55,798 nt of DNA from a bacterium (GTDB lineage: Bacteria > Zhuqueibacterota > QNDG01 > JAFGCO01), in NCBI GenBank assembly GCA_016932575.1, contig JAFGCO010000023.1, positions 1-55,798 of the forward strand. The letters run 5' to 3'. Positions 3,607 to 41,671 of the stretch are shown piece after piece. Each line of letters begins with the position of its first letter. The first letter of the stretch is position 1. A program made the position numbers and the translations under genes. Under the pieces are notes generated by a model that made no database searches, had not been told where the DNA came from, and saw nothing but the letters and a program-made list of their open reading frames with translations.

Positions 3607-4152
3607 ATGACTGTTCTTAAGGCCGTTCTTAATCGTGACAGCATCCGTCGTTACTCGGATAAACCCGTCGACCGGGAAACATTGTTGACGTGCCTTGAAG
3701 CGGCGCGTCTGGCGCCTTCCGCTGAAAATTCACAACCCTGGCGTTTCATTGTTCTGACCGATTCCGATATCAAGACCCGTTTCGGAAAAAACGTATTCAC
3801 AGGTATTTACAAAACATCGCAATTTGTATTGAAAGCACCGGCAATACTGGTATTGTGCGCAGATTTGGATTTTACAGCCAACAGGATGGGTAAATTATTC
3901 ACCGGGATTCCCTTTTACTTGCTGGATGTCGGCATGGCCGGAGAGCATTTTGCCCTGCAGGCTGCAGAAATGGGTCTGGGTACCTGCTGGATTGGATGGT
4001 TTAATATGAAAAAGGCACATAAAGCATTGAAGCTGCCAAAGAAAATCCGTATATGCGCAATGATGGCGGTAGGATATCCCACCCAAGACTGGCGATTAAA
4101 ACCGCACAAAAGGAAAAAACTGGAGGATATCGTTCACTGGAACGGGTGGTAA
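3607..4152 (+). CDS. Nitroreductase-family FMN oxidoreductase
   Basis: The 181-residue product has the nitroreductase fold signatures: an N-terminal RDSIRRYSDKPV segment, which normally contacts FMN phosphate through its arginines, and APSAENSQPWRF, the usual second flavin-contact segment. The G-x-G-T-C-W-I-G-W segment near residue 130 is also typical. Such enzymes reduce nitro groups, quinones or other small acceptors with NAD(P)H; the substrate cannot be read from the sequence. The start follows CGGAG about 6 bases upstream. It lies between divergent rsgA and a convergent aldehyde dehydrogenase and seems to be a single gene with its own promoter in the AT-rich 3387-3606 gap. Confidence 0.88.
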   Translation: MTVLKAVLNRDSIRRYSDKPVDRETLLTCLEAARLAPSAENSQPWRFIVLTDSDIKTRFGKNVFTGIYKTSQFVLKAPAILVLCADLDFTANRMGKLFTGIPFYLLDVGMAGEHFALQAAEMGLGTCWIGWFNMKKAHKALKLPKKIRICAMMAVGYPTQDWRLKPHKRKKLEDIVHWNGW

Positions 4153-4253
4153 TCAGAAAAACCTTTGTTCCCCATCTTAAAGAGATAATAAAAGTCTCAA
4201 ATGACAGAAAAAATATATTATTTCACAAAAAGTATAATGAACCGTAAATCTGG

Positions 4254-5846
4254 TTAAAGCTTCTCATGTTGCTCTGAATTAAAAATTAAGTATTTAGAAA
4301 AATGTTTCAACACCCCCGGAACGGATTTAAGGCGCTTAAGTATATTCCGATGAAATAAAAGAATCATGCCTTTTTTGATCCCTTCGATCATCGCGGCGCC
4401 ATACGGAAACCACCAGAATTTCTGTATTTTGTATTGCGGATCATAATTGATATACTGAATATTTACCATCTCATCCAAACCTTTTTCTCCATGTACCCAG
4501 CCGACACCGCTGTTCTTTATCCCGGTCCACCCCGCCTCAGTCATTCCGAATGACACAATGACATCATTAACCATCACAGAGCCGGACTCGATCTGACGTG
4601 CAATCCGCATTCCCCTTCGACGAGACCGTGTCCAGACAGAAGCGGCCAATCCGAACGCGGATTGATTGGCAAAACAGATTGCTTCTTCATCATTTTGTAC
4701 GGGTGCCACCAATACAACAGGACCAAACCACTCTTCCCGATAAAAGGATTGTAAAGGTTTCTCTGTATAAAGGACGGTCGGTTCATAGAAATATCCGCCC
4801 AAATGATTTAATTTCTTTCCGCCGCATCTGATCTCAGCCCCTTCTCTTACTGCCTTGCTTACCAATGTTCCAATTTTATGATACTGAGACTCCGAGGCCA
4901 GTGAAGCAATATCCGTTTCCAGATCCAACCCGTTCCCGAGACGCAATCGCCGGACTTTACGGATCACTGCCTCAATAAATGCATCCACAATCTTATAATT
5001 CACATAAACCCGCTCAACGCTGTTGCAGTTCTGTCCGCAGTTATTAAATCCCCCCCATACCACTCCGCTGCTGGCAATGTGAATATCCGCATCTTCACAC
5101 ACAATGGCCGGATCACTTCCCCCCATCTCCAAAACCACTTTCTTCATTGATTGTGCTGCTGTTTCCATCACTTTCCGGCCGATACCCGTGCTTCCCGTAA
5201 AAAATACTTTATCCACAGACGATTTCACCAGAGCTGCGCCTGTACGGCCTTCCCCCTGAATGATTTTAAATACCGAATCCGGGACACCGGCATCAAGAAA
5301 AAGCTCGTGAATCTTTTTCCCGACAAAAGGTGTTATTTCTGAAGGCTTAAACACAATACTGTTTCCGGAAAGCAAAGCGGGAACAATGCCGCCCAAAGGA
5401 ATAAGCAGCGGCCAGTTCCATGGAGAGATAATTCCAAGTACACCCAATGGCTGAAAATGAAGAATGCTGCCACGCCGGAAAAAGAAAATATGATGCAGGG
5501 GAACAGGACGCTCTTTTAAAAATTTATCGGCCCGCTCAGCATAGTAACCGATCAGGTCAACGCCGGCTTCAACTTCTACAGCAAGAGATTCTGCGTAAGG
5601 ACGTCCCATTTCACGGGTAATCAGTTGAGCCATCGATTCGGCCTGTTCCAGCAGGTTCTGCTGTGCACGCTTTAATATTTTTGCCCGCTCAGACAACCTG
5701 TAAGATCTCCAAATATAAAATCCTTCACGGGCTTGCCGGACAGTTTCTTCCACACATTCAGGAAGAGTTATCTCAACTTGCCCCAATGATTCAAGTGTTG
5801 CAGGATTGAAGGATTCAAGTATATTCTTTTTTGGTAACTCTGCCAT
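4254..5846 (-). CDS. Aldehyde dehydrogenase family protein
   Basis: This is an NAD(P)-dependent aldehyde dehydrogenase of 530 residues. The catalytic pair is seen: Glu240 in VLEMGG and Cys274 in CGQNC, 34 residues apart as in the classical enzymes. The cofactor segment SPWNWP is at about 141-146 and FTGST at about 216-220. The last 60 or so residues extend past the usual end with a basic, hydrophobic segment (GMILLFHRNILKRLK), as in membrane-associated fatty-aldehyde dehydrogenases; that suggests a long-chain aldehyde substrate but is only an inference. The ATG at 5846 gives a normal N-terminus. It is transcribed alone, facing the nitroreductase gene. Confidence 0.92.
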   Translation of the reverse strand: MAELPKKNILESFNPATLESLGQVEITLPECVEETVRQAREGFYIWRSYRLSERAKILKRAQQNLLEQAESMAQLITREMGRPYAESLAVEVEAGVDLIGYYAERADKFLKERPVPLHHIFFFRRGSILHFQPLGVLGIISPWNWPLLIPLGGIVPALLSGNSIVFKPSEITPFVGKKIHELFLDAGVPDSVFKIIQGEGRTGAALVKSSVDKVFFTGSTGIGRKVMETAAQSMKKVVLEMGGSDPAIVCEDADIHIASSGVVWGGFNNCGQNCNSVERVYVNYKIVDAFIEAVIRKVRRLRLGNGLDLETDIASLASESQYHKIGTLVSKAVREGAEIRCGGKKLNHLGGYFYEPTVLYTEKPLQSFYREEWFGPVVLVAPVQNDEEAICFANQSAFGLAASVWTRSRRRGMRIARQIESGSVMVNDVIVSFGMTEAGWTGIKNSGVGWVHGEKGLDEMVNIQYINYDPQYKIQKFWWFPYGAAMIEGIKKGMILLFHRNILKRLKSVPGVLKHFSKYLIFNSEQHEKL

Positions 5847-34713: not shown

Positions 34714-35604
34714 TCAAATCAAATCCAAATCCTTCAGTACTTTTCTCAGTTTTTCCTTATTGTCCGCCTGCATCGGCAACATCGGCAGCCGGTACGATTC
34801 TTCAATAAGACCCATTAAAGCCAATGCCGCTTTCACAGGAATCGGATTGGTTTCTAAAAAATTGGCTTTCAGGAGCGGATAGATCATTTTCTGTAATTTA
34901 CGGGCAGCTTCAAACTCTCCTTCCAGACACAGATGTGTTAATTTGCGCATTTTATCGGGAATCTCATTGGCTGCAACAGAGATGACACCTCTTGCACCCA
35001 GGGCAATCAGTGGAAGCGTATTGGCGTCGTCCCCGGAAATCATGATAAAATCCTCGGGATATATCATCGCCTGCTGGCTCATCTGACTGATATTCCCCGT
35101 AGCCTCTTTTATCCCAATGATATTGTCAATTTCTGCAAGCCGGAGCACCGTTTCCGGAAATATATTAATCCCTGTCCGTGACGGAATATTATAAAGAACA
35201 ATAGGAATACTGATTGACCCGGCGATGGCTTTAAAATGCTGATACAAACCTTCCTGAGTGGGTTTGTTGTAATAAGGAGCAACCGATAAAATTGCGTCTG
35301 CGCCCACTTGCTGCATTGCTTTGGCGGTTCGAATGACATGCTCTGTATGATATCCTCCGGCACCCGCAACCACCGGTATTTTTTTATCGACCTTTTGAAT
35401 CACTGTCTCCACCACAAGAAGCGATTCCTCCAGGCTCAATGTAACACTTTCTCCCGTGGTACCGCAGGGTACAATAAAATCCACTCCGCCTTTTAACAGA
35501 AAATCGATCAGCCGTTTTAACGCCACGACATCGATTTCACCGTTGCCTGTAAATGGCGTGACAATTGCCGTTCCGCAGCCCCTTAATTTTTTGATTATAT
35601 TCAT
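34714..35604 (-). CDS. dapA: 4-hydroxy-tetrahydrodipicolinate synthase
   Basis: DapA condenses pyruvate with aspartate semialdehyde in lysine and diaminopimelate synthesis. The 296-residue protein has PCGTTGES (substrate-binding loop), APYYNKPTQEGLYQHF with the catalytic tyrosine, and the Schiff-base lysine in GIKEATGN (about residue 165). GGAGGG lies before the ATG. It follows dapB by 36 bases on the minus strand, the last gene of the lysC-dapB-dapA operon. Confident. Confidence 0.97.
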   Translation of the reverse strand: MNIIKKLRGCGTAIVTPFTGNGEIDVVALKRLIDFLLKGGVDFIVPCGTTGESVTLSLEESLLVVETVIQKVDKKIPVVAGAGGYHTEHVIRTAKAMQQVGADAILSVAPYYNKPTQEGLYQHFKAIAGSISIPIVLYNIPSRTGINIFPETVLRLAEIDNIIGIKEATGNISQMSQQAMIYPEDFIMISGDDANTLPLIALGARGVISVAANEIPDKMRKLTHLCLEGEFEAARKLQKMIYPLLKANFLETNPIPVKAALALMGLIEESYRLPMLPMQADNKEKLRKVLKDLDLI

Positions 35605-35640: not shown

Positions 35641-36336
35641 TTACTGAAGCAAGTCTTTCATGGCATCCCGAAAATCAAAGCAGCCTTTACGTTTTTCAAT
35701 CCATTTGCTTGCGATAAGCGCGCCTTCTGCAAATCCTTCCCGATTTCTGGCCACATGTTCCAACCGAATGGTATCAACCCGTGAATCAAATCCAACTACA
35801 TGCGTGCCGGGAATATAACCGGCTCTCACGCTTGACACAGGGATATTTTTCCTGTAATTCATTTGAATCATATTTTTTATCACCAGAGCGGTTCCCGAGG
35901 GTGCATCTTTTTTAAACTGGTGATGTGCCTCTTCAATAAAGGGATCATAATGATCAAATCGGGATATCATGTTTCCGGCACGCTCCAGGATTTCGTAAAA
36001 CAGATTCACGCCCAGAGAAAAATTGGCGGCATAAATCAGCCCGGTGTTTGTATCTTTAACCCAGTTTTCAACACGATTCAGATGACTGTGCCAGCCGGTC
36101 GTCCCAATCACCATATGTTTTCCCATCGACAAGCCGAGCTCAATATTCTTCATGACTGTATCCGGCGTTGAAAATTCAACAAGAACCGGAACATCCCGTA
36201 ATTGTTCACGCACTTTAGAATTATTGCTAAAGGGACAATCAATATCAAAACGGGCAGCGACTCTGACATCATGATCTGGAGTCAGCCGTTCGATCATCTT
36301 TCCCATTTTACCATATCCGACCAGAGCAATATTCAT
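35641..36336 (-). CDS. dapB: 4-hydroxy-tetrahydrodipicolinate reductase
   Basis: DapB reduces the DapA product with NAD(P)H. The 231-residue protein starts with the cofactor loop LVGYGKMGKMI, has ATGTTGW-like VIGTTGW at about 90, and the catalytic segment EAHHQFKKDAPSGTAL (about 151-166) with the His and Lys of the family. It is slightly shorter than the typical 240-270 residues because the N-terminal half is compact, as in Bacteroidetes and Thermotoga-like forms. Only 6 bases separate it from lysC upstream, so they are translated together. Confidence 0.95.
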   Translation of the reverse strand: MNIALVGYGKMGKMIERLTPDHDVRVAARFDIDCPFSNNSKVREQLRDVPVLVEFSTPDTVMKNIELGLSMGKHMVIGTTGWHSHLNRVENWVKDTNTGLIYAANFSLGVNLFYEILERAGNMISRFDHYDPFIEEAHHQFKKDAPSGTALVIKNMIQMNYRKNIPVSSVRAGYIPGTHVVGFDSRVDTIRLEHVARNREGFAEGALIASKWIEKRKGCFDFRDAMKDLLQ

Positions 36337-36342
36337 ATCAGA

Positions 36343-37740
36343 TCAATGCCTCCCCTGATAAGACTCAAAAAATTCTGAATTAATCTCCTGAAAAAATTCC
36401 TTATGCAGCCTGTCAACGGCCGTTTCCACCTGATCCGCATTGATGACAGCGGTTGCATTCATATTCGATGCCCCATGCGAAATTAAATCAACCCGAATAT
36501 TGTCCAGGCACTTTGCAATCCGGCCTGTAATCGCCGGACATTCGACAAGCCGCTGACCAATAAGTGAAACCGTTGCTTTATCGGAATATATTTCAGTCCC
36601 TGAAATCCGATTAAAATCATCCATCAAATGCTGTAAATTGGCTGCTGTGCTCAGCACCATTTTTACAGAGCGTTCAGCAATATTGACAAGATAGGGTGTT
36701 AATCGTTCTCTGTCAAGTATATCAAAAATCATTTTAAAATAATCATAAAACGGTAAATTCTGATCATTCCGCAATGCAAGCAGATATACCGGGCGCTTAT
36801 AGGTAATCGATGTTACCGGATATGGTGCTTCAGCCCCGTTTAGCGATAATTCAGTACCTCGATTTTCAGGATCCATGGAATTCAACACATGCACCGGAAT
36901 CCCTTTCTGCCGTGCTGGTGCAATCGAGCTTGGATGCAGCACCTTGGCACCGAAGAATGAAATTTCTGCAGCTTCATCAAATGATATTTTTTTTACGGTC
37001 AGCGGATTTGGAAAAATTTCAGGATCTGCTGTCATGACACCCGGAACATCCTTCCAAATTTGCACATCTTTCACATCCAGTGCGGCGCCTACCAGGGCGG
37101 CAGTAAAATCCGAGCCTTCGAATCCCAGCGTCGTCGTTGCCCCTTCACGCGTGGCTCCGATAAATCCCTGAATGACAGGCACTTTCCCGGAATTCACAAG
37201 CGGATGAATTTTATCGGCCAGTTTTGCGTATGTCATCTCTGTAATGGGTTGTGCATGAGTAAACCGATCATCCGTAATAATCAGTTCACGGGCATCGCAC
37301 CATACTGCATCCACTCCTGAAGCCCGAAGTGCGGCTGTGATGATTGTTGTCGATATCAATTCGCCGTAAGATAAAAACTTGTCCTGGCTTCGGGCGGTAA
37401 GGTCCCTGAGCACAGAAACGCCATCCTTTAATTTGGTCAATTCCTTATCAAACCGTTTGATTTGGTCTGAAAATGCATTTTTAGAAAAATCCGTTAGTAT
37501 TTCCTGAATAATCTGATCATGGTACGAGCGCAATGCTTCCAGCTCATTGCCCGCCTGTTCAGCATTACCTTCAGCAGCCAGGCGTGCAACAGCAAGCAGA
37601 CGACGCGTTACTTTGCCCATGGCCGAGTTGACAATCACCGGCTGATATTGAATTCGGTGATGTACAATCCTGCAGACCCTACGTATACATTCGGCATCCA
37701 GAATGGAGGTGCCGCCAAATTTCATCACAATCATATTCAT
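36343..37740 (-). CDS. lysC: Aspartate kinase
   Basis: The first enzyme of the aspartate pathway, 465 residues. The phosphate loop MKFGGTS is at 6-12, SYGELIST and the acceptor segment TLGFEGSDFTAAL (a variant of the usual GRGGSD) are present, followed by DVPGVMTADPEIFPN and AKVLHPSSIAPARQKGIPV. Two ACT domains make the C-terminal 160 residues, so feedback by lysine or threonine is likely. The start is either Met1 or Met3 of the frame. It heads the minus-strand operon lysC-dapB-dapA and diverges from dapF. Distinct from the Ask_Ect-type copy at 23377. Confidence 0.95.
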   Translation of the reverse strand: MNMIVMKFGGTSILDAECIRRVCRIVHHRIQYQPVIVNSAMGKVTRRLLAVARLAAEGNAEQAGNELEALRSYHDQIIQEILTDFSKNAFSDQIKRFDKELTKLKDGVSVLRDLTARSQDKFLSYGELISTTIITAALRASGVDAVWCDARELIITDDRFTHAQPITEMTYAKLADKIHPLVNSGKVPVIQGFIGATREGATTTLGFEGSDFTAALVGAALDVKDVQIWKDVPGVMTADPEIFPNPLTVKKISFDEAAEISFFGAKVLHPSSIAPARQKGIPVHVLNSMDPENRGTELSLNGAEAPYPVTSITYKRPVYLLALRNDQNLPFYDYFKMIFDILDRERLTPYLVNIAERSVKMVLSTAANLQHLMDDFNRISGTEIYSDKATVSLIGQRLVECPAITGRIAKCLDNIRVDLISHGASNMNATAVINADQVETAVDRLHKEFFQEINSEFFESYQGRH

Positions 37741-38218: not shown

Positions 38219-39079
38219 ATGCAATTTTTCAAATATCATGGTCTCGGAAATGATTACCTGGTTATGAACCCTGAACAAATCGGACGTGATTTGTCAGAGA
38301 AAGAAATCATTGCCATCTGTCATCGCAATTACGGGATTGGTTCCGACGGAATTTTATGGGGCCCCCTGAAAACGAAAAATGGATGTTACGGGCTGCGCAT
38401 TTTCAATCCCGATGCCAGTGAAGCGGAAAAGAGCGGTAACGGGCTTCGTATCTTTTCACGATATTTATGGGATCAGAATCTGGTGAAATCCGACCAGCCA
38501 TTTCATATTGATACAACTGGCGGCCGGGTGGAAGCGAAAGTCATGGACCAGGGAAAAAGGATTCATGTACAAATGGGAACGGTCAGTTTCAACAGCAGGA
38601 AAATACCGGTTAATGGACCTGACCGTGAAGTACTGAATGAAACCATAACAATTCATGGAAAACAATATATTTACTGTGCAGCCACGATCGGCAACCCGCA
38701 CTGCGTTCTGCCGCTGAATGAAATATCTGAAGATCTGGCAAGATCTGCCGGACCTGTCATAGAGACAGATTCTCGATTTCCAAACCGCACCAATGTTCAG
38801 TTTATGAAAGTGATTGACCGCAATAATATTCAGATTGAAATCTGGGAACGCGGAGCCGGATATACATTGGCCTCAGGCAGCAGCAGTTCGGCAGCTGCGG
38901 CTGTTGCGTATAAACTGAACCTGTGCGATCAGGACATCCGGGTACATATGCCGGGCGGCCTTCTGGAGATCAGGGTGGATCAGAATTTTAATATTTCTAT
39001 GACCGGCCCTGTAACCAAAGTGGGTACAGGGACAATTGAACAAGAAGCGTTTGAAGACTTTCCGCAACGTTTACTCTGA
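38219..39079 (+). CDS. dapF: Diaminopimelate epimerase homologue lacking both catalytic cysteines
   Basis: DapF turns LL- into meso-diaminopimelate with two cysteines acting as a proton relay. The 286-residue protein keeps the family plan: FFKYHGLGNDY at the start, GSDGILW, a first loop EKSGNG, TIGNPHCV, and a second loop RGAGYTLASG. In both loops the catalytic cysteine is serine: Ser72 where CGNG is usual, and Ser219 where ACG is usual, and the GAGET glutamate is Tyr215. The bases (AGC and TCA) are unambiguous. It is first in dapF-dapL-lysA, where the step is expected. It may be a divergent subgroup with another mechanism, or a non-epimerase. Other cysteines (34, 56, 153, 162) are not in these loops. 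Confidence 0.85.
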   Translation: MQFFKYHGLGNDYLVMNPEQIGRDLSEKEIIAICHRNYGIGSDGILWGPLKTKNGCYGLRIFNPDASEAEKSGNGLRIFSRYLWDQNLVKSDQPFHIDTTGGRVEAKVMDQGKRIHVQMGTVSFNSRKIPVNGPDREVLNETITIHGKQYIYCAATIGNPHCVLPLNEISEDLARSAGPVIETDSRFPNRTNVQFMKVIDRNNIQIEIWERGAGYTLASGSSSSAAAAVAYKLNLCDQDIRVHMPGGLLEIRVDQNFNISMTGPVTKVGTGTIEQEAFEDFPQRLL

Positions 39080-39108: not shown

Positions 39109-40338
39109 ATGGCAAGACTGAACGCAAATTATTATAAACTGGCGGCGGGCTATCTGTTTCCGGAGATTACCCGGCGCACAAAGGCTTTTCTGGAAACAAA
39201 TCCGGAAATAAAACTGATGAAACTGGGAATCGGAAATACCACAGAACCGTTAACCGCAACAGTCATTGAAGGACTGCACAAAGGGGTCAACAATCTTGCC
39301 GGTATAGAAACATATACCGGCTATGGGGAGTATCATGGTGAATTGCCCATTCGGACCGCGCTTCGATCATTTTATAAAAAACGAAATGTGGATATTGATG
39401 TTGAAGAATTTTTCGTCAGCGACGGAGCCAAACCGGATTCAGGCAACATTCAGTCCATCTTTTGTACAGACAGCAGGGTGGCTGTGCAGGATCCCGCTTA
39501 TCCCGTATATGTCGATACCAATGTTATTGCCGGGCGTTCCGGACAATTCAATCAGGACAAAAAGCTCTACGAAGATATTTTATATATGCCATGCACAGAA
39601 AAAAACGGCTTTATCCCGGATCCCCCCTCTGAAAAAATGGATCTGATTTATCTTTGCAGTCCTAACAATCCAACCGGGGCGGTGGCAACTAAAGAACAGT
39701 TAAAGTTATTTGTGGATTATGCGATTTCAAATCAGGCAGTCATTATATTTGATGCGGCATATTCCGCATTCATCCGTGATCCGGATCTCCCCCGGTCCAT
39801 CTATGAAGTGGAAGGGGCCAAAAAATGTGCGATCGAAATTAACAGCTTCTCAAAATCCGCAGGATTCACCGGTGTGCGTCTCGGATGGACGATAGTGCCC
39901 TTTGAATTGGCTATTGAGAATGTGAAACCGGGCGATGTCCATAAATTCTGGATGCGGCGACAAAGTACATTTTTCAACGGTCCTTCCAACATTATTCAGG
40001 AAGGCGGCGTGGCGGCCTTATCGGATAAGGGATGGAAGGAATGCCAGGAACTGGTGAATTACTATATGAAGAACGCACGCATCATCCTCGAAGGATTAAG
40101 CCGGATGGGACTGACCGTTTACGGAGGAACCAATGGCCCGTATGTATGGCTGAAAACCCCGAATAACATGACGTCATGGGAATTTTTCGATAAGCTTCTA
40201 TATGAAACCCATGTGGTCGGCACACCGGGCTCAGGTTTCGGTCCCAGCGGAGAAGGTTTTTTCAGGCTGAGTGCCTTTGGGCATTCAGAAGACATTCAAC
40301 AGGCTGTGAAAAGTATTCAGGACAATCTGAGGTTATAA
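39109..40338 (+). CDS. dapL: LL-diaminopimelate aminotransferase
   Basis: DapL makes LL-diaminopimelate from tetrahydrodipicolinate directly, bypassing the acylated route. The 409-residue PLP enzyme has the family start NANYYKLAAGYLFPEI, then KLGIGNTTEPL, DGAKPDSGNIQ, YLCSPNNPTGA and the Schiff-base lysine in NSFSKSAGFTGVRLGW (about residue 249). It follows dapF by 29 bases and is separated from lysA by one base. It produces the LL isomer, which is why an epimerase is needed before LysA. Confident. Confidence 0.97.
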   Translation: MARLNANYYKLAAGYLFPEITRRTKAFLETNPEIKLMKLGIGNTTEPLTATVIEGLHKGVNNLAGIETYTGYGEYHGELPIRTALRSFYKKRNVDIDVEEFFVSDGAKPDSGNIQSIFCTDSRVAVQDPAYPVYVDTNVIAGRSGQFNQDKKLYEDILYMPCTEKNGFIPDPPSEKMDLIYLCSPNNPTGAVATKEQLKLFVDYAISNQAVIIFDAAYSAFIRDPDLPRSIYEVEGAKKCAIEINSFSKSAGFTGVRLGWTIVPFELAIENVKPGDVHKFWMRRQSTFFNGPSNIIQEGGVAALSDKGWKECQELVNYYMKNARIILEGLSRMGLTVYGGTNGPYVWLKTPNNMTSWEFFDKLLYETHVVGTPGSGFGPSGEGFFRLSAFGHSEDIQQAVKSIQDNLRL

Positions 40339-40339
40339 T

Positions 40340-41671
40340 ATGACTCATTTAAATACAGATCATTTGACACCTTTCGGCAGGGTCACCTCCGAAACCATTG
40401 TTCGAGCTGCCGAACAATTCGGCACACCGGTCTATCTTTATGATGAAGCTGTGGTTGTCCGTAAATGCCAAGATGCATTGAATATGCCCAACGCCTATGG
40501 CCTGACGGTTCGCTACGCCATGAAAGCCAATTCGAACCGGGCGCTTCTTCAGCTCATCAATAATCAGGGATTGTCACTGGACTGCAGTACATTGAATGAG
40601 GTGCGACGGGCCCATACAGCGGGTATTGCCTGCGATCGGATGATGCTGACATCCCAGGAAGTTCCCGCAGGAAAAGACCGTCAGGATCTTGAAACAATGA
40701 TTCGTGAAGGGCTTGTCTACAATATCTGCTCATTGAGGCAGCTGAAATTGATTGCGGATTTTTCCGTAAAGCATGATCAGCCCATGTCGATCCGAATCAA
40801 TCCGGGCGTGGGTGCCGGAGAATCCGTCACAAGAAATACAGGAGATAAATACTCAAGCTTCGGAATTCATATGGCCAATATCGAGAAAGCGCTTGATGTA
40901 ATTCATGAGAAAGGATTCCGCATTAATCAGGTTCATGTGCATATTGGTTCCGGCGGAGATCCGGATATGTGGCGTGAAAATATCGACAGAGAACTGATGA
41001 TTACTGAAAAGTATTTTCCCGATGCTGAAATTGTCAATCTGGGAGGCGGATTCAAGGAGGCAAGAATGCCGGATGAGACCGCCGCAGATATTCAGGAGTT
41101 GGGATATTACGCCAAGGAACGGTTTAAGGATTTTTACCGCCGGACAGGACGAAAACTGCATATGTCAATCGAACCTGGCACTTATATTGTCGCCAATGCG
41201 GGCTATCTTGTAACTTCTGTCGTAGACGAAAAATGGTCGGGACCGACCGGTTTTGAATTCATCATTCTTGATGCAGGCATGGAAGCCAATACGCGCCCCT
41301 TGCTTTATGGTTCCAGGCATCCATTCTATGTGATTTCCAATACCGGAAAGCTTCTTTCTTCTGAATTTGATTTGAGTACAATGAAGTACGAACTGGATTA
41401 CCGAGTCGTTGTCGGACGTTGTTGTGAAAGCGGAGACTCTCAGAGTCTCGATTATCAGGGTCACATCATTCCAAGAACCATGGCCAATCCTGAGATCGGG
41501 GATTATGTTGTTATCGGCGGAACCGGTGCTTACTGTTCAGCCATGTCTCTTTATAATTACAATTCGCATGTACAGGCAGCGGAATTACTGCTTCGTGAAG
41601 ACGGCAAGTTGAAAATGATTCGGAAAAGGCAAACCCTGAATCAAATCATACACAATGAGCAGAATTTATAG
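40340..41671 (+). CDS. lysA: Diaminopimelate decarboxylase
   Basis: LysA is a PLP-dependent fold III decarboxylase that makes lysine from meso-diaminopimelate. The PLP lysine is in RYAMKANSN (about residue 57); HVHIGSGGD, NLGGGFKEA, EPGTYIVA and the partner-subunit CCESGD loop follow in order, and GTGAYCSAMSLYNYN ends the active-site set. Its 443 residues are normal. The start codon lies 1 base after the dapL stop, so the genes are coupled. I cannot exclude another amino acid decarboxylase of the same fold, but the context favours LysA. Confidence 0.92.
   Translation: MTHLNTDHLTPFGRVTSETIVRAAEQFGTPVYLYDEAVVVRKCQDALNMPNAYGLTVRYAMKANSNRALLQLINNQGLSLDCSTLNEVRRAHTAGIACDRMMLTSQEVPAGKDRQDLETMIREGLVYNICSLRQLKLIADFSVKHDQPMSIRINPGVGAGESVTRNTGDKYSSFGIHMANIEKALDVIHEKGFRINQVHVHIGSGGDPDMWRENIDRELMITEKYFPDAEIVNLGGGFKEARMPDETAADIQELGYYAKERFKDFYRRTGRKLHMSIEPGTYIVANAGYLVTSVVDEKWSGPTGFEFIILDAGMEANTRPLLYGSRHPFYVISNTGKLLSSEFDLSTMKYELDYRVVVGRCCESGDSQSLDYQGHIIPRTMANPEIGDYVVIGGTGAYCSAMSLYNYNSHVQAAELLLREDGKLKMIRKRQTLNQIIHNEQNL

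Follow-up and report, generated by a model that had tools for sequence, protein, structure and literature searches.

A widespread clade of DapF proteins with serine in place of both catalytic cysteines, most likely active diaminopimelate epimerases

The window analysed in this work, a bacterial DNA stretch of 55,798 nucleotides taken as a whole, contains a gene for a full-length DapF protein of 286 amino acids, which is directly followed by dapL and lysA and faces a divergent operon of the same pathway composed of aspartate kinase, dapB and dapA (Table 1). Profile searches confirmed the dapF-dapL-lysA order described in the initial annotation, with the qualification that LysA matches its Pfam families but falls below the NCBIfam cut-off. 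In relatives the genes are arranged as dapB-dapA-dapF-dapL-lysA, with dapF lying between dapA and dapL in several of them. The protein scores 227 bits with the TIGR00652 profile of DapF (cut-off 114.65) and 181.8 bits with PF01678 (cut-off 34.7), and DAP_epimerase is the sole Pfam family that it matches at E <= 0.001. All its matches in the plasmid collection that we searched have less than 60% identity, the best one having 36%. The DapB protein of the divergent operon is short (231 amino acids compared to 270 positions of the model) and matches its profile in two separate segments; it is probably a compact variant.

Table 1. Genes of the lysine/DAP pathway and residues of the Ser/Ser DapF in the window
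Feature	Position	Strand	Evidence
dapF, Ser/Ser variant, 286 aa	38219..39079	+	TIGR00652, PF01678, AlphaFold2 model, PDB matches
dapL, LL-diaminopimelate aminotransferase	39109..40338	+	TIGR03542, 559 bits (cut-off 364.7)
lysA, diaminopimelate decarboxylase, EPGT variant	40340..41671	+	PF02784 and PF00278; TIGR01048, 258 bits (below the cut-off of 297.9)
aspartate kinase (divergent operon, same pathway)	36343..37740	-	profile matches
dapB	35641..36336	-	TIGR00036, 140 bits (cut-off 122)
dapA	34714..35604	-	TIGR00674, 349 bits (cut-off 206)
Ser72, codon AGC, replaces the first catalytic Cys (Cys75 of Anabaena DapF)	38432..38434	+	alignment to 9mro
Ser219, codon TCA, replaces the second catalytic Cys (Cys224 of Anabaena DapF)	38873..38875	+	alignment to 9mro
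Lys71, constant throughout the Ser/Ser clade; Cys/Cys sequences have M, F, L or N	38429..38431	+	alignment
Tyr13, constant throughout the Ser/Ser clade; 32/32 Cys/Cys sequences have Phe	38255..38257	+	alignment
Tyr215; His215 in the early-branching G118/G141/G152 group	38861..38863	+	alignment

The initial annotation reported that serine stands in place of both catalytic cysteines, and this is borne out by the translation and by the alignment to the Anabaena enzyme (9mro), where Ser72 (in EKSGNG) and Ser219 (in TLASGSSS) correspond to the two residues alkylated by aziDAP (PMC12039745). The protein lacks both catalytic cysteines of DapF, one of which is the Cys in the PROSITE signature PDOC01029 (quoted in PMC8225329). 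The change of GAGET to GAGYT, also pointed out initially, is real as a substitution but does not amount to a broken signature, since normal Cys/Cys DapF proteins vary at this position (215), with E, I, P or V among those compared (I in Anabaena). An alignment of 65 Ser/Ser with 32 Cys/Cys sequences revealed, among others, the following fixed differences (Cys/Cys residues in parentheses): Y13 (F), S42 (A), K71 (M/F), E207 (R), Y215 (E), S221 (T) and S222 (G). The initial annotation made no mention of the clade-specific changes F13Y, A42S, M71K, R207E, T221S and G222S. The early-branching group retains Y13, K71, S42 and S222, with His215 and Leu207 at the two remaining positions. Lys71 adjoins Ser72, while Tyr13 is two residues away from Asn11, a contact of the reacting amine. 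The DAP ligands published for Anabaena DapF (N13, N66, N164, N197, E215, R216 and T226; PMC12039745) correspond to N11, N63, N159, N192, E210, R211 and S221, i.e. they are identical except for Thr226, whose hydroxyl is preserved in Ser221, and they are invariant or nearly so within the clade. Structure prediction yielded the two-domain pseudosymmetric DapF fold: the AlphaFold2 model has a pLDDT of 94.7, and its best matches in the PDB are DapF structures, with P. aeruginosa DapF at the top (Z score 36.4, 271 residues, 1.7 A).

The initial annotation envisaged a subgroup of DapF sharing both serines, and such a subgroup does exist and is large. Ser72 and Ser219 are found in 74 of 74 full-length members of one clade, which spans several phyla. 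All relatives with 51-73% identity are of the Ser/Ser type; they come from a KSB1/Calditrichota-labelled phylum, Verrucomicrobia (Opitutales and others), Desulfobacterales, Syntrophaceae, Sporomusa, Pelosinus, Desulfotruncus, the cyanobacteria Mastigocoleus and Spirirestis, SAR324, Anaerolineae and others, and the early-branching group (44% identity) likewise has both serines. When the trait columns were left out of the tree calculation, the Ser/Ser sequences all fell on one side of a single branch (support 100/99), nested beside the GNPH-type Cys/Cys DapF of cyanobacteria and Firmicutes, and thus a single loss of both cysteines is the simplest history. Among 75 distinct sequences, serine codons of both the AGY and the TCN families occur at each of the two sites, which shows, at the level of codons, that selection acts on the serine itself; together with the 74/74 conservation, this excludes chance or sequencing error as the source of the serines. 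Frame breaks were seen in three metagenome-derived contigs, affecting dapA in L034 and the Ser/Ser dapF in L088 and L090, and are probably assembly or sequencing errors.

The distribution of the two forms is that of a one-for-one replacement. A second epimerase of the DapF family, one of the possibilities raised initially, was not found: in the window's genome, which is 94.5% complete, PF01678 matches this gene only, although an unrelated epimerase could be encoded elsewhere. DapF is present in 71 of 82 genomes from the window's phylum, of which 16 have the Ser/Ser type (as assigned by fetched sequence or by score), and just one (G077) has both forms. Within the class of Cerasicoccus, DapF was found in 182 of 189 genomes, 46 of the Ser/Ser type and 136 canonical, with none having both; here the typing was by score (Ser/Ser type above 200 bits), each complete Ser/Ser-type sequence that we fetched was indeed Ser/Ser, and eight out of eight sequences fetched from the canonical-by-score genomes were Cys/Cys. 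On the other hand, at least nine genomes from other groups, including Sporomusa, Pelosinus, Desulfotruncus, Mastigocoleus and others, hold both forms, and in these the Ser/Ser protein may have another role; no common neighbours of its gene were seen among the isolates inspected. In Sporomusa malonica (L064) the Ser/Ser DapF (4001-4831) is directly followed by an ORF (4853-5791) that resembles a PhzF-family protein and would be a second protein with the DapF fold, and a canonical DapF is encoded elsewhere in the same genome.

Meso-DAP dehydrogenase (Ddh), which would bypass DapF, gave no match over the cut-off in any of 44 genomes, the window's genome included, nor in 40 of 43 Ser/Ser-type genomes from the class of Cerasicoccus (G186 being among the three exceptions). 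In the window's genome, MurE shows the DNPR motif known from DAP-adding enzymes, which points to DAP but by itself cannot tell the LL from the meso form. We also considered a particular type of MurE as a partner of the Ser/Ser DapF and dropped the idea, as the latter occurs both with and without a recognizable MurE. Eight related genomes (G029, G047, G049, G055, G058, G082, G083 and G085, of which G049 comprises five contigs only) possess the DAP genes and have no MurE over the family cut-off; in six of them the best matches of the MurE search carry the MurF-type TGSxGKTT motif, and the third residue of the stem peptide or its ligase may be unusual there.

LysA of the window has EPGT in place of EPGR and groups with the LysA of 16 other Ser/Ser-only genomes in a clade that spans the window's phylum and Opitutales. 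The coupling between EPGT LysA and the Ser/Ser DapF looked strong at first but broke down in the wider sample: about 30 Ser/Ser genomes have an ordinary LysA (the EPGR motif was read in seven), as do G006, G083 and G106, and one genome (G214) combines EPGT LysA with a DapF scored as canonical. By this distribution the two traits are separable. The suggestion that LysA accepts the LL form therefore cannot be the general answer, but it may hold for the window itself with its unusual LysA.

Taken together, the Ser/Ser DapF is a real, widespread and uncharacterised variant of DapF, and we put at roughly two in three the probability that it is a working LL- to meso-DAP epimerase that dispenses with cysteines. 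In its favour are its position as the sole DapF-family gene of the genome, the complete DAP operons, the mutual replacement with canonical DapF, the retention of all DAP ligands, the constancy of both serines, the scarcity of Ddh, the DNPR-type MurE and the ordinary EPGR LysA in many Ser/Ser genomes, as well as the serine bases described for proteins of the same fold, Ser93 and Ser90 (PMC4113996). The replacement in two phyla and the invariant Lys71, Tyr13 and Tyr/His215 favour the options of another mechanism or another catalytic residue, both of which had been listed in the initial annotation.

From these comparisons we infer the epimerase reaction, the proton route and the identity of the base as follows. 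The substrate would be LL-DAP made by the neighbouring DapL, and the product meso-DAP. As in ordinary DapF, Asn63, Asn159, Asn192, Glu210 and Arg211 would hold the far L-amino-acid end of DAP, and two helix N-termini would bind the reacting carboxylate. The thiolate/thiol pair of ordinary DapF is located where two helices begin, and the sulfurs have no basic residue within 4 A (PMC12039745). In the Ser/Ser protein the proton would cross the alpha-carbon via non-thiol groups, most likely the hydroxyls of Ser72 and Ser219 on opposite faces, whose basic or acidic character could be set by the helix dipoles together with Lys71, Tyr13 and Tyr/His215; alternatively, one of the latter three residues may itself be the base. 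An MIO-type cofactor formed from Ala-Ser-Gly 218-220 was rejected, as the change of ACG to ASG follows automatically from the replacement of Cys by Ser, and the Gly NH is presumably needed to bind the carboxylate.

The main alternative is that the Ser/Ser protein, though it binds DAP or something similar, carries out a different reaction (one-base exchange, elimination or another step of the pathway); meso-DAP would then come from an unrelated epimerase or racemase invisible to PF01678. We regard it as unlikely. In its favour, both thiols are lost and a single engineered Cys-to-Ser change nearly kills related racemases, leaving less than 0.1% of activity in PddB (PMC8225329) and strongly reducing that of HisR (PMC11602996). 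These results count against an active epimerase, as do the genomes that retain a canonical DapF alongside; moreover, in the proline racemase superfamily the enzyme with a Ser/Thr pair is a dehydratase (PMC4113996). However, given the mutual exclusion in two phyla, the putative epimerase would have to appear together with every Ser/Ser form, and the preservation of all DAP ligands and the location of the gene between dapA and dapL in several relatives also speak against this reading.

It is less probable still that LL-DAP is used directly, being decarboxylated by LysA and incorporated into the wall, with the Ser/Ser protein a relic or confined to a side role. Such a scenario could draw on the EPGT LysA clade, common to 17 Ser/Ser-only genomes, and on Lacunisphaera, a genus of Opitutaceae in which DL-DAP was not detected by TLC and DAP was found by GC/MS without assignment of stereochemistry (PMC5303756), but the same paper ascribes the negative TLC result to low amounts. 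The Ser/Ser genomes with ordinary LysA, and the converse case of G214, argue against it, and a relic would hardly keep 74 of 74 serines with switched codons. A pseudoenzyme without activity that serves in regulation or binding, in the manner suggested by the E. coli DapF-RppH complex (6d13, according to the title of the entry), would explain the loss of both thiols, but we consider it very improbable in view of the strong constraint on the whole active site, the newly invariant protonatable residues and the usual lack of any other DapF in the host. Finally, an artefact of assembly or translation is refuted by the same residues in 74 independent sequences, one-contig isolate genomes included.

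DapF is the textbook two-cysteine racemase and a drug target. An ancient natural clade in which both cysteines have been swapped, and which provides the sole DapF of Opitutales and other groups, raises the question of how the proton of the alpha-carbon is removed without a thiolate. We lean, somewhat cautiously, towards the view that paired serines with Lys, Tyr and His partners perform the two-base proton transfer in a thiol-free, cofactor-independent epimerase, which would serve an essential step of lysine and cell-wall synthesis in several phyla. If this is true, cysteine is not obligatory for such chemistry, and one would expect aziDAP and other thiol-directed inhibitors to have no effect on the Ser/Ser enzymes. 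The result also bears on the annotation of such families by their cysteine pair and on the stereochemistry of the cell wall in verrucomicrobial subdivision 4, the DAP content of which has long been disputed.

Among proteins of known structure, the PhzF family shares with the Ser/Ser DapF a DapF-like fold devoid of catalytic cysteines (Z about 24.5), but has only 14-15% identity to it. PhzF proteins use acidic catalytic residues and carry out a different reaction. The members of the proline racemase superfamily with a catalytic serine combine a DapF-like fold with a natural serine at the first catalytic position. According to PMC4113996, Ser93 of 4-hydroxyproline epimerase (Ser/Cys) and Ser90 of trans-3-hydroxyproline dehydratase (Ser/Thr) are shown or proposed to be the catalytic bases; the epimerase keeps one Cys, the Ser/Thr enzyme is the dehydratase mentioned above, and no Ser/Ser epimerase is described in the passages of that paper that we consulted. 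These enzymes act on different substrates, and at 11-14% identity, with DAP_epimerase as its only Pfam match, our protein does not group with them by sequence. In the open-access literature, to which the search was confined, no description of a natural Ser/Ser DapF turned up. The closest solved enzymes remain the canonical DapF proteins (TIGR00652; e.g. Anabaena 9mro and H. influenzae 1gqz), with 32-33% identity and with the same fold, length, published substrate ligands and operon context; they differ in having the two catalytic cysteines, as well as Phe13, Met71 and Thr221-Gly222, where the Ser/Ser form has Tyr, Lys and Ser-Ser. In the C73S (2q9h) and C217S (2q9j) variants of H. influenzae DapF, which are among the nearest solved folds, the same residues were exchanged singly without loss of the fold; unlike the natural clade, however, these are engineered single mutants that lack the linked changes to Lys71, Tyr13 and Tyr215.
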